The notes under the pieces: generated by a model
Databases searched by the model: none
Seen by the model: the letters and a program-made list of their open reading frames with translations, nothing else
Told to the model about the DNA's origin: nothing
Position numbers and translations under genes: made by a program
From: Flexilinea flocculi
Lineage (GTDB): Bacteria; Chloroflexota; Anaerolineae; Anaerolineales; Anaerolineaceae
DNA length: 64,000 nucleotides
Assembly: GCF_001192795.1 (NCBI RefSeq)
Contig: NZ_DF968181.1
Location: forward strand, 1,726,974 to 1,790,973
Reading direction: 5' to 3'
In this document: positions 59,014 through 63,132 of the stretch, in pieces
Layout: each line of letters opens with the position of its first letter
How positions within the stretch are numbered: position 1 is the first letter of the stretch

Positions 59014-60750
59014 TCAGTCCATTTCTTCTGCTTGAAACTGTACGGAACAATAACTTGCGTATAAGCCGCCGGTTTTGCTGAGTTCATCGTGCGTTCCTAC
59101 TTCGACAATTTCACCCTGGTCTAATACAAGAATCTGATCTGCCCGTTTGACTGTGGATAATCGATGCGCGATGACAATGATAGTTCGAGTACCAGCCAAT
59201 TTTTGAATTGAATCTTGAATTTCCTTTTCGGTTTGAACATCAACCGAAGCTGTCGCTTCATCCAGAATCAGGATAGGACTGTTACGCAGCACAGCTCTTG
59301 CAATGGCTATGCGCTGTTTCTGGCCACCGCTCAAGCGAACGCCACGTTCTCCGATCATCGTTTTATATGCTTCAGGCATATCCTGAATAAACTCATGCGC
59401 AGAGGCAATTTTTGCCGCTTCAATAATTTGTTCAATACTTGGATTCGCTGCTCCATAGGCAATATTCTCCTCAATGGTGCCATGAAACAAGAATACATCC
59501 TGCAATACCATTGAAATGTTTTTTCGCAGCGAATCAATCTTATACTTACGAATGTCCTGACCGTCTATCAACACACGACCTTCCTGTGGATCATAGAAAC
59601 GTTCTATTAATGAGATAATCGTCGTTTTTCCAACACCCGTTGGACCAACCAGAGCCAACATTTTTCCTGGTTCAACATGAAAACTGACATTTTTTAATAC
59701 AGGTGAATCGAAAGAATAATGAAAGGATACATTTTCGAAGGTCAGTCCTCCGTCACATTTTTCCATCGGAACAGCATCCGGCAAATCCACAATGTCCGGT
59801 TCGGAATCAAGAATCTCAAAGATACGAATCGCCCCGGAAAAAGCACGTGTGAAATCTTCCAACGTGCGAGACATGGTCGTAACAGGTTCATAAAGAAGGT
59901 TCAGATACAGGATGAAACCCACAATATCTGATATTGGCAGTTCCCCATGCAGCCCCATCCAGCCGCCGTACCCAAGCACGACAACAGTTCCGATCGATGT
60001 AAAAAATTGAATCATCGGACGGAAAAACGTAATATTCTTTAGTGCGTTCACCTCTAAAGCTGCATATTTACGTGTTATTTCATGAACGCGTTTGGATTCT
60101 TCTCTTTGTTTCCCGAAAGCCTGGATTTCTTTGATTCCGGAGAGATTATCTTGCAGGATTGCGTTGATTTCTCCCATTACTTTCCGGCTTTTTACAAAAA
60201 TCGATGATATCCGGCTCGAAAATTTAACCGCAAAGACAATAACAAAAGGAATCGGGATACAGGTTGCCATCGCTAATTTTACATTGATGGAGAATAATAG
60301 GATCACAATGATCAGGATTGTGAAAACACTGCTGAAAATATCAGGGAGAGCATGTGATATCAGTGTTTCGACTTTATCGGCATCATTGATGATGTGAGAC
60401 ATCAAATCACCAGTCTGCTTATTATGGTAAAAATGAAGCGACAGTTTTTGAAGATGATCATACATCTTCCAATAGATCTCTGGCACGAGATTCCAGGACA
60501 CTTTGTGACTTAAATAACTACTGAGAAAACTGAATAAGAAACGCAACAAATATGCCAAAAGAAGTATTCCGGAGAGTAACCAGATAAAATTTTCAGTCAG
60601 CGTATTTTGTTCCAGACGCGAGGTTAATTCTCTTACAAGGGCAGGCGTAGTAAAGTTCAGTATATTTAGCATAATCAGCGAAAATATGGAAATCGTAAGA
60701 TATTTCCAATATCCGCCTGTCATTTTTATTATTCGCAGTAATAGTTTCAT
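59014..60750 (-). CDS. ABC exporter (fused membrane and ATPase domains)
   Basis: 578 aa from the ATG at 60750, which has GGAG 7 nt upstream; the longer frame to 60822 lacks one. Residues about 15-310 form an ABC type I exporter membrane domain with six segments; the ATPase has Walker A GPTGVGKTT, Q-loop MVLQDVFLFHGTIEENIAYG, signature LSGGQKQRIAIARA, Walker B ILILDEATASVD and switch His AHRLSTVKRAD. Such half-transporters work as dimers and export lipids, peptides or drugs; cargo unknown. Divergent from tyrosine phenol-lyase. A hairpin lies in its 5' region. Confidence 0.9.
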   Translation of the reverse strand: MKLLLRIIKMTGGYWKYLTISIFSLIMLNILNFTTPALVRELTSRLEQNTLTENFIWLLSGILLLAYLLRFLFSFLSSYLSHKVSWNLVPEIYWKMYDHLQKLSLHFYHNKQTGDLMSHIINDADKVETLISHALPDIFSSVFTILIIVILLFSINVKLAMATCIPIPFVIVFAVKFSSRISSIFVKSRKVMGEINAILQDNLSGIKEIQAFGKQREESKRVHEITRKYAALEVNALKNITFFRPMIQFFTSIGTVVVLGYGGWMGLHGELPISDIVGFILYLNLLYEPVTTMSRTLEDFTRAFSGAIRIFEILDSEPDIVDLPDAVPMEKCDGGLTFENVSFHYSFDSPVLKNVSFHVEPGKMLALVGPTGVGKTTIISLIERFYDPQEGRVLIDGQDIRKYKIDSLRKNISMVLQDVFLFHGTIEENIAYGAANPSIEQIIEAAKIASAHEFIQDMPEAYKTMIGERGVRLSGGQKQRIAIARAVLRNSPILILDEATASVDVQTEKEIQDSIQKLAGTRTIIVIAHRLSTVKRADQILVLDQGEIVEVGTHDELSKTGGLYASYCSVQFQAEEMD

Positions 60751-60847
60751 TTTCTTACTCCAAGTCCAATATTTTATCAGATTTCCATTCAAAAATCGAT
60801 TCGAAAAATTCAATTTCTGCAATTTATAAATAGAGAAATATATAAAA

Positions 60848-60890
60848 TGATGTACTGTTCTTGCAACCTAAGAGCAAGAACAGCACATCA
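60848..60890 (-). terminator. Long hairpin with T-run upstream of the ABC exporter
   Basis: TGATGTACTGTTCTTGC (60848-60864) pairs with GCAAGAACAGCACATCA (60874-60890), 16 of 17 bp. On the minus strand the stem is followed by TTTTATATATTTC, so it reads as an intrinsic terminator about 100 bp before the exporter start. It may attenuate the exporter or end a minus-strand transcript from the gap. Confidence 0.6.
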
Positions 60891-60959
60891 CGATATTTCC
60901 TCAGTTGATTCATAAGAATTTTATAAATCGCGTTGATTAGTTAAGAGAAAACTCAGCCC

Positions 60960-60988
60960 TTGTCAATCTGACGATTTCTCATTAAAAT
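60960..60988 (+). promoter_or_regulatory. Promoter of the tyrosine phenol-lyase leader
   Basis: TTGTCA (60960-60965), 17 bp spacer, TAAAAT (60983-60988). Transcription would begin about 60995, only some 5 nt before the leader ORF's ATG. Confidence 0.65.
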
Positions 60989-60999
60989 CATTTGCAACT

Positions 61000-61083
61000 A
61001 TGAATTTCCAAATTCTTTCTGCCTACGCTTATTATTATTACGGCAAACGAAATAACGTTGTGCCGGATTTTTCGCGTAAGTAA
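61000..61083 (+). CDS. Tyr-rich leader peptide (27 codons)
   Basis: The ORF reads MNFQILSAYAYYYYGKRN and then NVVPDFSRK before TAA. Five of 27 residues are Tyr, four of them consecutive (codons 11-14). No ribosome site is present, but the promoter places the mRNA start a few bases upstream, which fits leaderless translation as seen at capA and smpB. The stop lies 26 nt before the stem of an intrinsic terminator and 123 nt before the tyrosine phenol-lyase start. This arrangement is that of amino-acid leader peptides such as TrpL, PheL or TnaC. Sequence similarity to TnaC (which needs a Trp-Phe-Asn-Ile-Asp segment) is absent. Confidence 0.55.
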   Translation: MNFQILSAYAYYYYGKRNNVVPDFSRK

Positions 61084-61109
61084 GAATCATCAGTCAAAAA
61101 TAAAAAAAA

Positions 61110-61138
61110 GCGATATCTTCCGGATATCGCTTTTTTTT
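61110..61138 (+). terminator. Leader terminator (attenuator) before tyrosine phenol-lyase
   Basis: GCGATATC (61110-61117) and GATATCGC (61123-61130) with loop TTCCG, extended by the A-run on the left and eight T on the right. No other plus-strand gene is available for it to terminate except the leader ORF, since the gene on the left is divergent. Confidence 0.8.
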
Positions 61139-61206
61139 ATTTTCTTTTCGTCATTCAACCTGAATTTCAACTCAGGAAAAACATAAAAACCAATTTGGAG
61201 GATATG

Positions 61207-62649
61207 ATGGAAGTGAAATTATCAAATGGCAAAGTAATTCCGATGGAAATGCACAAAATTAAAATTGTTCAACAGACATTCTTGCCAGCCATAGAAGAAC
61301 GCATTGAAGCAATACAATCAGCGGGTTTCAATACATTCCTTCTCAAAAGCCACAACCTTTTTCTGGACATGTTGACTGACAGCGGGACCAATGCGATGAG
61401 CGATAACCAGCAGAGCGCCATGCTTTTATCCGATGATGCTTATGCCGGATCAGAGAGTTTTTACAAATTGGAAGAAGCTGTTCAAGATATTTTTGGTTTG
61501 AAATATGTAATTCCAGCACATCAAGGTCGAGCCTGTGAACATTTAATTGCAAAAGTTTTTGTAAAACCCGGAACCTATGTCATTACGAATTACCATTTCA
61601 CTACCACAAAAGCACATATCCGGCTATGCGGCGGGGAAGTCATTGAGTTGATCGGTGATGAAGGACGAATCACCAACAGCCATTGTCCTTTCAAAGGTAA
61701 TATGGATGTTCTGGAACTCCGAAAAACAATCGAAAAATTAGGCAAAGAGCGGATTAATTCGATCAGAATGGAAGCGACAACGAATTTAATAGGCGGTCAA
61801 CCATTTTCTATGCAAAACTTGAAGGAGGTCAGGAAAATCGCTAACGAATATGGCATTATGATGGTAATGGATTGCAGTCTGATCTCAGAAAACGCTTATT
61901 TTATCAAAACCAGAGAACCAGGATTTGAGGATAAAACAATCAAAGAAATTATTCGTGAGATGATTGAACAGGTCGATATGGTCTACATGTCAGCCAGAAA
62001 AAGCGCCATGGCAAGAGGAGGACTGATTGCAACGAATCATCAAAGGATATTTAACGAAATTCTTCCCAATGTACCGGTATATGAAGGATTTATTACATAT
62101 GGCGGAATGTCAACGAAAGAAATTGAATCGATCGCCGTCGGGATGTATGAAATGGTTGACCTCAATATCGCTGGCAGCGGCGCAGAGTTTATCAGATTCT
62201 TTGCGAACCGATTAATTGAGTACGGAGTACCCGTTGTAACACCTCCCGGGGGATTAGGCTGTCATATTGACGCTTCAAAATTCTTGCCAAATATCCCCTG
62301 GAATGAGTATCCTGCCGGAGCTTTGGCAGCAGCAGTCTATATCATTTCCGGCTGCCGCGGAATGGAAAGAGGCAGTTTATCAATGGATCGGGAAGCTGAT
62401 GGGGAAGAAGAACAATCCGACATGGAGCTTCTCCGACTGGCTGTCCCAAGAAGGACTTTTACGATGTCGCAATTAGAATTTTTAGCGGATCGTATTTCCT
62501 GGCTCTACAATCATCGCGACCTCATTCAAGGATTAAAATGGGTTGAAGAACCGCCTGTGTTACGATTCTTTATCGGTCGCCTGGAATCCATTAATCGTTG
62601 GGAGTACGATCTGCTTCAGGCCTTTCAATCGGATTTCGGAGCGTATTAA
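61207..62649 (+). CDS. tpl: Tyrosine phenol-lyase-like beta-eliminating lyase
   Basis: 480 aa from the ATG at 61207 (GGAGG 5 nt upstream; an ATG at 61204 is also possible). PLP-dependent tryptophanase/tyrosine phenol-lyase family: FLLKSHNLFLDMLTDSGTNA, AYAGSESFYKLEEAVQDIFG, PAHQGRACEHL, GGQPFSMQNL, VMDCSLISENAYFIK and Lys265 in MSARKSAMARGG. Two sites that separate the two enzymes favour tyrosine phenol-lyase: FTTTKAH has Thr where tryptophanase has Asp, and GMERGSLS has Arg where tryptophanase has Ile. The SARKSAMARGG loop differs from both reference enzymes (KKDxxV-GG), so substrate scope is uncertain. The reaction would give phenol, pyruvate and ammonia from tyrosine. Preceded by a Tyr-rich leader and terminator. 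Confidence 0.8.
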   Translation: MEVKLSNGKVIPMEMHKIKIVQQTFLPAIEERIEAIQSAGFNTFLLKSHNLFLDMLTDSGTNAMSDNQQSAMLLSDDAYAGSESFYKLEEAVQDIFGLKYVIPAHQGRACEHLIAKVFVKPGTYVITNYHFTTTKAHIRLCGGEVIELIGDEGRITNSHCPFKGNMDVLELRKTIEKLGKERINSIRMEATTNLIGGQPFSMQNLKEVRKIANEYGIMMVMDCSLISENAYFIKTREPGFEDKTIKEIIREMIEQVDMVYMSARKSAMARGGLIATNHQRIFNEILPNVPVYEGFITYGGMSTKEIESIAVGMYEMVDLNIAGSGAEFIRFFANRLIEYGVPVVTPPGGLGCHIDASKFLPNIPWNEYPAGALAAAVYIISGCRGMERGSLSMDREADGEEEQSDMELLRLAVPRRTFTMSQLEFLADRISWLYNHRDLIQGLKWVEEPPVLRFFIGRLESINRWEYDLLQAFQSDFGAY

Positions 62650-62738: not shown

Positions 62739-63132
62739 CAGTAATTCGAAATAATAAAAATTAGGAGAAACGAATAAATATTGTCAAAAAAAAAGCTTGT
62801 ACCTGAATGAATGATGTTCTATATGAAGTTATTAGAAAACAAGTCAAATGGTTTGGATAAATTCTGTCATTGTGTCATTGCGAGTCCCGCAGGAACGAAT
62901 CAATCTCCTGCCGCATGCAAGAATAGAATGCTTCTCAATGATCGCAATGACAGATCATTACATGAATAATTCATCCAATAAATCTTTTACACAAAGCGCA
63001 AGAATCAACACAACATCATATATATTTTTTGCATCTTTCGAAATACTGCCCCATATTCCTGATGACTGAAATCATAAGAACGACAAGTTTTCTTGATGGT
63101 TTTGAAAAGTATTTTCATATTTCGAATTGCTC
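62739..63132. repeat. Possible long copy of the dispersed element
   Basis: Left end CAGTAATTCGAAATA (62739-62753) and right end CATATTTCGAATTGCTC (63116-63132) face each other across about 394 bp. The interior holds a REP-like palindrome and a decayed hairpin piece (TTTTACACAAAGCGCAAG, near 62988). The two ends may instead be separate insertions. No gene is visible in the 558-bp gap. Confidence 0.35.
62873..62952. repeat. REP-like palindrome with TGTCATTGCGAG ends
   Basis: TGTCATTGCGAG (62873-62884) and TCGCAATGACA (62942-62952) are inverted. The inner CCCGCAGGAACGAATCAATC resembles the widespread CATTGCGAG-AAGCAATC repeats of many bacterial genomes. Its GC content is higher than the flanks. 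It may be a foreign small repeat inserted in the gap. Confidence 0.6.

Follow-up and report, generated by a model that had tools for sequence, protein, structure and literature searches.

A conserved tyrosine-codon leader and its predicted attenuator before a tyrosine phenol-lyase-family enzyme in Flexilinea flocculi

Why should a member of an enzyme family that is usually called degradative stand behind a short leader peptide with a run of tyrosine codons? The question is raised by a locus of Flexilinea flocculi (Chloroflexota, Anaerolineaceae) in a stretch of 64,000 nucleotides of contig NZ_DF968181.1 (positions 1,726,974 to 1,790,973, forward strand), which we call the window. A lyase of the tyrosine phenol-lyase (TPL)/tryptophanase family is preceded here by a promoter, a short open reading frame (ORF) and an intrinsic terminator. 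Our comparison of related genomes makes it probable that 61000-61138 is a ribosome-mediated attenuator which reads charged tRNA-Tyr, that Tyr shortage switches the lyase on and that the enzyme most likely supplies tyrosine.

The leader and its conservation

A first-pass annotation, made from the letters of the window, had claimed a promoter, a 27-codon ORF with Tyr at codons 9 and 11-14, a terminator and the lyase, and all of these were found in place:

60960-60988, forward strand: sigma-70-type promoter, TTGTCA-17-TAAAAT, agreeing with 10 of 12 consensus positions
61000-61083, forward strand: leader peptide ORF MNFQILSAYAYYYYGKRNNVVPDFSRK of 27 codons (ATG at 61000, TAA at 61081-61083), identified by its reading frame and the conserved Tyr run
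61024-61041, forward strand: control codons, Tyr at codons 9 and 11-14, identified by sequence and by alignment with relatives
61110-61138, forward strand: intrinsic terminator, stem GCGATATC/GATATCGC at 61110-61130 followed by eight T at 61131-61138, identified by sequence, fold and scan
61197-61201, forward strand: Shine-Dalgarno sequence GGAGG of the lyase, identified by sequence
61207-62649, forward strand: TPL/tryptophanase-family lyase of a distinct subfamily (ATG at 61207, stop codon ending at 62649), identified by profile scores and residues

The end of the -10 box lies 11 nucleotides (nt) 5' of the leader ATG, and the leader has no visible Shine-Dalgarno sequence, so the transcript would be nearly leaderless. 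By eye, a -10-like box lies about 7-27 nt 5' of the leader start in relatives, one locus (L012) having no clear box. Promoter-like sites alone are not significant, with 4 in 60700-61400 against 2.9 expected. There are three overlapping terminator-like matches against 0.3 expected, and the RNA of 60990-61140 folds with z = -5.42. The ORF 5' of the leader is divergent (ABC transporter-like by eye), which argues that the leader belongs to the lyase itself.

The attenuation leader proposed in the first-pass annotation is supported by comparison. A search of 147 genomes of the family Anaerolineaceae at E <= 1e-140 found 24 lyases, the window's own included, and every one of the 24 carries, on its coding strand, a Tyr-codon run in the 300 nt upstream of the gene (the search expression has an extra clause to admit L008 and L042, whose runs are Y-x-Y). 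The run is found on 0 of 24 reverse strands and at 0 of 13 loci outside the family, a set which counts L129, a lyase outside the subfamily, and L035 from Thermodesulfobacteriota, but not L036 (frame broken) or L127 (cut by a contig end). The window lyase is 92% identical to that of Flexilinea sp. MO118, and the other matches come from uncultured Anaerolineaceae and Ornatilinea. Two lyase fragments at contig ends stand outside the 24; that of G011 has the leader MQLFSNSYAYYYYGSRFKPAGVFA and a terminator upstream, and that of G009 is a C-terminal piece. Wider samples added one further orthologue in 400 genomes of the order, where 20 of the 24 were found again, and 12 new lyases in 396 genomes of the class, including those of G463, which has a T-box, and G606 (L129), which is of another subfamily. 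In 331 genomes of the phylum we found, beyond the host's own and that of G463, five lyases at 42-43% identity. The 12 new lyases of the class sample have no Tyr run wherever the upstream DNA is readable, and at 18 loci of paralogues of about 40% identity the 400 nt upstream hold no ORF of 5-45 codons with adjacent Tyr.

The 24 leaders fall into two architectures. Type A (11 loci, with the window among them) has runs like YAYYYYG which start near codon 10-13, and a terminator 3' of the stop codon. This terminator is detected by script in 10 of the 11 loci, and the eleventh (L006) has the hairpin but N in the T tract. The ORF frame is intact from start to Tyr run in all 11. Synonymous TAT/TAC swaps occur in the run among relatives, and one whole codon is lost in G008. 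Type B comprises the other 13 loci, and in 8 of all 24 orthologues the run is out of frame with the first AUG.

A string of four TAY codons is not rare by itself, with 16 matches in the genome, of which 7 lie in one TAT microsatellite, and 56 in the reversed control. The weight of the observation therefore rests on conservation. We looked for a Tyr regulon in the host genome by viewing 10 contexts of these 16 matches, and only the lyase leader was convincing. The gene neighbourhoods (n=21, namely 20 Chloroflexota regions and L035, with G003, G014, G015, G017, G169 and L036 not covered) have no neighbour family common to more than a few, except for widespread transporter-type ORFs, 8 members of one cluster in varying places. 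As no neighbouring gene family is widely shared, leader and lyase appear to be the conserved unit. Elsewhere in the host genome, at about 1500 of L064 (G000:C3:1844346), the short ORF MNLIYCRQYYYYTK precedes a gene which looks by eye like an Asp/Glu racemase; its ATG overlaps a -10-like box, and it is therefore probably not transcribed.

RNA helices and a candidate frameshift

How could such a leader act on the lyase? Three regions of the leader RNA are relevant here:

61024-61045, forward strand: region 1 (UACGC 61024-61028, CGGCA 61041-61045), pairing with region 2 in a 1:2 helix
61061-61078, forward strand: region 2 (UGCCG 61061-61065, GCGUA 61074-61078), with nucleotides kept across two reading frames
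61110-61123, forward strand: region 3 (GCGA 61110-61113, UCCGG 61119-61123), the antiterminator partner, within the 5' arm and loop of the terminator

The two parts of region 1 flank the Tyr codons, and region 2 also holds the alternative partners of region 3, CCGGA at 61063-61067 and UCGC at 61072-61075. The CCGGA/TCCGG match noticed in the first-pass annotation is thus real, and UCGC/GCGA extends it. As far as base pairing can tell, RNA of the window's genus can form the classical 1:2, 2:3 and 3:4 helices, which is a trp-type arrangement.

The elements and their conservation are observed; from them we infer the switching itself. With ample Tyr-tRNA, the ribosome would translate past the Tyr codons, reach the stop codon at 61081 and cover region 2, region 3 would join the terminator, and transcription would end before the lyase. 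With scarce Tyr-tRNA, the ribosome would stall on codons 11-14 and cover region 1 (CGGCA), which frees region 2; this would pair with region 3 (CCGGA:UCCGG and UCGC:GCGA), no terminator would form and the lyase would be made.

In an alignment of six leaders of the same genus (the window and five others) the Tyr run is nearly invariant, and 14 of 19 columns of the 3' block GCCGGATTTTTCGCGTAAG are invariant. The translation of this block is VPDFSRK in the window but AGFFA in G008; with two frames in use, nucleotides rather than peptide are kept. The 1:2 and terminator helices have 96.1% of cells paired in the six genomes compared with 22-55% when slid (best 55.4%), in a test biased towards the window, from whose row the structure was derived; its shuffle control was uninformative. 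When a ribosome is placed at the first Tyr of the run, the nascent RNA folds with 7-12 antiterminator pairs in 6 of the 11 type A loci (L001, L002, L003, L006, L007 and L009, the window among them), where the pairs counted join the terminator 5' arm or loop to upstream RNA beyond the stalled ribosome. With the stall at the last Tyr, L004 gives 8 such pairs. Candidates for the mutually exclusive structures which the first-pass annotation suggested looking for are present at these six loci, but they are weak by energy.

The type B leaders differ at their 3' end. Here the ORF closes with YYY (YxY in two loci) and one further codon, and the stop abuts a GC hairpin. Many hairpin pairs are compensated (position 6 is G-C, C-G, G-U and A-U), with a bias toward the structure because the pairs were read from single energy folds. 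Eight of the 13 loci (L008, L013, L038, L042, L044, L046, L047 and L048, in genomes G024, G101, G014, G132, G103, G090, G156 and G169) start with ATG-GTG-Ser-TTT-TAT and have the Tyr run in the +1 frame, an arrangement that the window leader itself does not have. Frame 0 stops 0-5 codons after this start, and the +1 frame is open from the U run for 14, 15 or 16 codons into YYY/YxY and the stop. Stops interrupt frame 0 in 8 of 8 loci and the +2 frame in 7 of 8, and the probability of an open +1 frame under dinucleotide shuffling, multiplied over the loci, is 0.007; the eight loci are related, so such statistics overstate their independence. The distance from ATG to run is 55 in six loci and 58 or 61 in the others, always 1 modulo 3. 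The eight are found in several places of the lyase tree, in which 14 of 35 inner branches are open. The remaining five type B loci have lost the SFY motif, and there the AUG shares its frame with the run; in G117, a neighbour of G132 in the tree, the distance is 54 and not 55. The 15-base start pattern occurs 19 times in the 147 genomes, 8 times in these leaders and 11 times without a Tyr leader.

We tentatively suggest, as a serious possibility though not yet our expectation, that a hungry-codon +1 frameshift gates the attenuator of these eight relatives, so that Tyr is checked twice in succession. Starvation for UAU would let Phe-tRNA slip along the U4/U5 run, from UUU to UUU. The ribosome would then go on in the +1 frame as far as the second Tyr run (YYY/YxY, one codon, stop), which abuts the hairpin, and would block the hairpin there. 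Initiation at AUU or AUA is another way in which the +1 frame could conceivably be read. Two observations argue instead for translation in frame 0, namely the swap of the Ser codon from AGC/AGT (six loci) to TCT (two sister species, one event) and the AUG, which is nearly leaderless in six of the eight. A T tract follows the hairpin in 7 of 8 frameshift-type loci and in 2 of the other 5, which is not a significant association (Fisher P 0.22). According to passages of a 2016 review, no starvation-specific products of hungry-codon frameshifting are known, the frameshift case within a leader ORF is the telithromycin-induced one of ermC, and the pheL frameshift is incidental (PMC5009743). Judged by titles and abstracts, we found no nearer case of a regulatory starvation frameshift in the open-licence PMC literature. 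If true, ours would be the first use of a starvation-induced frameshift for regulation as far as we found, and the type B relatives offer a natural test of whether starvation frameshifting ever serves as a switch.

The enzyme and its possible role in tyrosine supply

What the attenuator means depends on the enzyme behind it. The first-pass annotation called it a tyrosine phenol-lyase for its Thr and Arg at typical sites. Both residues are there (T124 and R381, in the numbering of TPL 1c7g), but the name does not hold as given: the lyase scores 475.1 bits with TIGR02618, the tyrosine phenol-lyase equivalog, below the cut-off of 720.7, which the paralogues L014 and L016 exceed (780.4 and 751.5 bits). 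The tryptophanase models TIGR02617 and NF053783 give 374.3 and 424.5 bits, also below their cut-offs of 825.8 and 750, and among the family models only the broad PRK13238 is matched above cut-off. The residues agree with TPL at Y71, R100, T124, N185, D214, K257, Y291, R381, R404, F448 and F449, and are unlike it at S216, L217 (R217L), R256 (K256R) and F288 (M288F). These four are present in 25 of 25 Chloroflexota rows and 11 of 12 further rows. L129, at 46% identity, has the TPL letters T216, R217 and K256 and thus belongs to another subfamily, and L035, which has no Tyr leader, shares L217, R256 and F288 but has P124 and V379. T124, R381, F448 and F449, which we take to be the ring-site residues of TPL, are unchanged in all family rows long enough to include them. 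K257, which also agrees with TPL, is likewise an active-site residue. R217 presumably contacts O3' of pyridoxal phosphate (PLP), and its loss could favour other beta-chemistry. On profile scores and residues the lyase is a distinct subfamily of the TPL/tryptophanase family and not a standard tyrosine phenol-lyase.

In G463 (family f50) a lyase which is 52% identical and has all the subfamily residues stands behind a different device:

L128:3046-3339, reverse strand: T-box before the subfamily lyase in G463, identified as a match to RF00230

The match extends over the full model (1-219) with 88.2 bits and E 5.9e-19. Present are GGUGGUACCACG, an AGUA/GAA specifier loop and a terminator with T7. 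Ten T-box alignments served for calibration, nine of them with a downstream ORF recognised by eye (TrpS, TrpB-like, SerS, ValS, IleS), and the codon columns of the covariance model hold the fitting codon (Trp, Ser, Val or Ile) in 9 of 9. In G463 the same columns hold UAC (Tyr), with a geometry that fits, provided that the loop is closed by an additional A-U pair; GAA-UAC-A then resembles the Trp form GAA-UGG-purine. In the part of a T-box study on which we draw, specifiers matched gene function wherever that was tested and lie 1-5 nt before a GAG (PMC2494555). UAC fits this spacing, which alone is not decisive. Taken as sequence, the specifier of the G463 T-box probably reads UAC. T-boxes are common in the family of G463, with 7-8 per genome in six genomes, and 15 genomes of that family have no further lyase at E <= 1e-120. 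No T-box was found at 12 other loci at E 0.05, or in the window at the gathering score. Upstream of the lyase orthologue L097 (G343, of another family), inspection by eye shows a promoter and, in the leader, a hairpin that resembles a terminator and has a T tract; a Tyr run is missing, and another antitermination signal may act there.

Induction of the lyase by Tyr shortage would make tyrosine supply its most likely role, and we argue for this role because two unrelated devices on one subfamily would answer a lack of charged Tyr-tRNA. The direction of the enzyme, like the switching, we infer. The lyase would form tyrosine either by TPL chemistry in the synthetic direction (phenol, pyruvate and ammonia) or by beta-replacement on serine. 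Of the three suggestions made in the first-pass annotation, namely an inverted logic, a nascent-peptide sensor and an enzyme used for synthesis, the last fits best. The other two are not favoured, as in the window's genus the C-terminal half of the leader is kept largely as nucleotides and not as peptide, and the G463 T-box is probably a Tyr one.

Several observations weigh against this account. The helices of the window's genus show no covariation, with 0 pairs changed on both sides, and are too conserved to test. L004, L005, L011, L043 and L045 give only 0-5 antiterminator pairs, and L004 and L005 belong to the window's genus. The antiterminator energies are mostly no better than those of shuffles (fraction as low 0.02-0.88 over 11 loci). 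The T-box on a subfamily lyase is a single case below the gathering score of 93, which the other T-boxes of the G463 genome likewise do not reach. Its specifier loop also parses as GAA-U-ACA-U (Thr), with the length seen in the Ser, Val and Ile forms. UAC is favoured by the purine that follows the codon, but not every calibrator has a purine there, one Ile calibrator having C. Finally, the host genome has matches to prephenate dehydrogenase (TyrA-like) and, 3 kb apart, chorismate synthase (AroC). The host can thus probably make Tyr in the usual way, and the lyase would not be its sole source but an auxiliary route. As a simple rule, the idea that the lyase replaces tyrosine biosynthesis finds no support, because PF02153 is matched in 13 of 13 carriers among 61 relatives. 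Nor is there a clear link with aroC, which we found in 8 of the 13 lyase carriers and in 10 of the sample's 24 other genomes of the family.

Could the same elements be explained otherwise? The strongest competitor, which we regard as possible but rather unlikely, accepts an attenuator that senses Tyr shortage and gives the enzyme another substrate (a Tyr analogue or another beta-elimination) within a Tyr-starvation response. R217L, K256R and M288F alter the PLP pocket throughout the subfamily, and the scores below both equivalog cut-offs agree with such a substrate; the constancy of T124, R381, F448 and F449 does not, nor does the P124 of L035, where the Tyr leader is missing as well. A nascent-chain sensor of free tyrosine like TnaC, in which abundant Tyr halts the ribosome close to the stop codon and switches on a degradative lyase, would suit the usual role of the family, and in type B the 5' arm of the abutting hairpin would be hidden by a ribosome that pauses on the stop. 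It is harder to reconcile with leaders like that of the window: 13 codons separate the end of the Tyr run from the stop, the peptide sequence beyond the run is not conserved, and two frames are used to read largely the same nucleotides. The distance from run to stop also varies among type A leaders, and the T-box relative would answer uncharged tRNA and not the free amino acid, so we consider this sensor improbable. Least credible, to the point where we give it hardly any weight, is a merely incidental ORF and terminator, the hairpin being a fixed terminator. The commonness of the TAY string and the near-expected count of promoter-like sites would allow this, but the Tyr run is present in all 24 orthologues with the frame from start to run kept at all type A loci, and the divergent upstream ORF leaves no evident upstream transcript to end there.

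If the attenuator reading with tyrosine supply is true, an enzyme family usually called degradative gains a tyrosine-supply subfamily, induced by lack of Tyr-tRNA and switched on by two unrelated RNA devices, a codon-run attenuator and a T-box. It would also predict a chorismate-independent route from phenol to tyrosine in anaerobes.

Other features of the window deserve mention. One is a near-perfect inverted repeat at 60849-60889, GATGT-CTGTTCTTGC / GCAAGAACAG-ACATC, with a 9-nt centre and no T tract, which lies in the gap that separates the lyase promoter from the divergent ABC transporter-like ORF. At 62870-62960, 3' of the lyase, CATTGTGTCATTGCGAGTCCCGCAGGAACGA ... GATCGCAATGACAG appears by eye to be an imperfect inverted interspersed repeat. 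The gene at 57850-58941 matches a putative nickel-pincer-nucleotide-dependent ornithine cyclodeaminase variant (NF052526, 608.4 bits, cut-off 440).

Comparison with known systems

In the open-licence PMC literature we found no Tyr-codon leader attenuator on a TPL-family gene and no TPL in Anaerolineaceae. On attenuation by leader peptides for aromatic amino acids in Chloroflexi we found nothing there either, the nearest work concerning histidine. The closest likeness is to the trpL, pheL and hisL attenuators, where, too, a short ORF contains consecutive codons for a single amino acid and a terminator lies before the gene. These act through mutually exclusive 1:2, 2:3 and 3:4 helices and an intrinsic terminator. 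The window differs from them in its Tyr sensor codons, in its nearly leaderless start, in its Chloroflexota host and in its target, a TPL-family lyase and not a classical biosynthetic operon. In TnaC-tnaA of Escherichia coli, as in the window, a leader peptide precedes an enzyme of the TPL/tryptophanase family. TnaC senses free Trp through nascent-chain arrest and acts through Rho, whereas the leader in the window has a codon run followed by an intrinsic terminator, and the C-terminal part of its peptide is not conserved. Enterobacterial tpl genes are controlled by the DNA-binding protein TyrR and share with our locus the enzyme family; the window has a translated RNA leader, for which we propose the opposite logic. 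A Tyr T-box (RF00230) responds to uncharged tRNA-Tyr, as the proposed device would, but binds the tRNA directly and without a leader peptide. The frameshifts of ermC and pheL lie inside a leader ORF and are comparable only with the type B relatives; in the passages of the review cited they are drug-induced or incidental (PMC5009743), whereas the frameshift proposed for type B would be starvation-induced and conserved. Set beside these systems, the conserved Tyr-codon attenuator predicted here is ordinary in its mechanism and unusual in its target.

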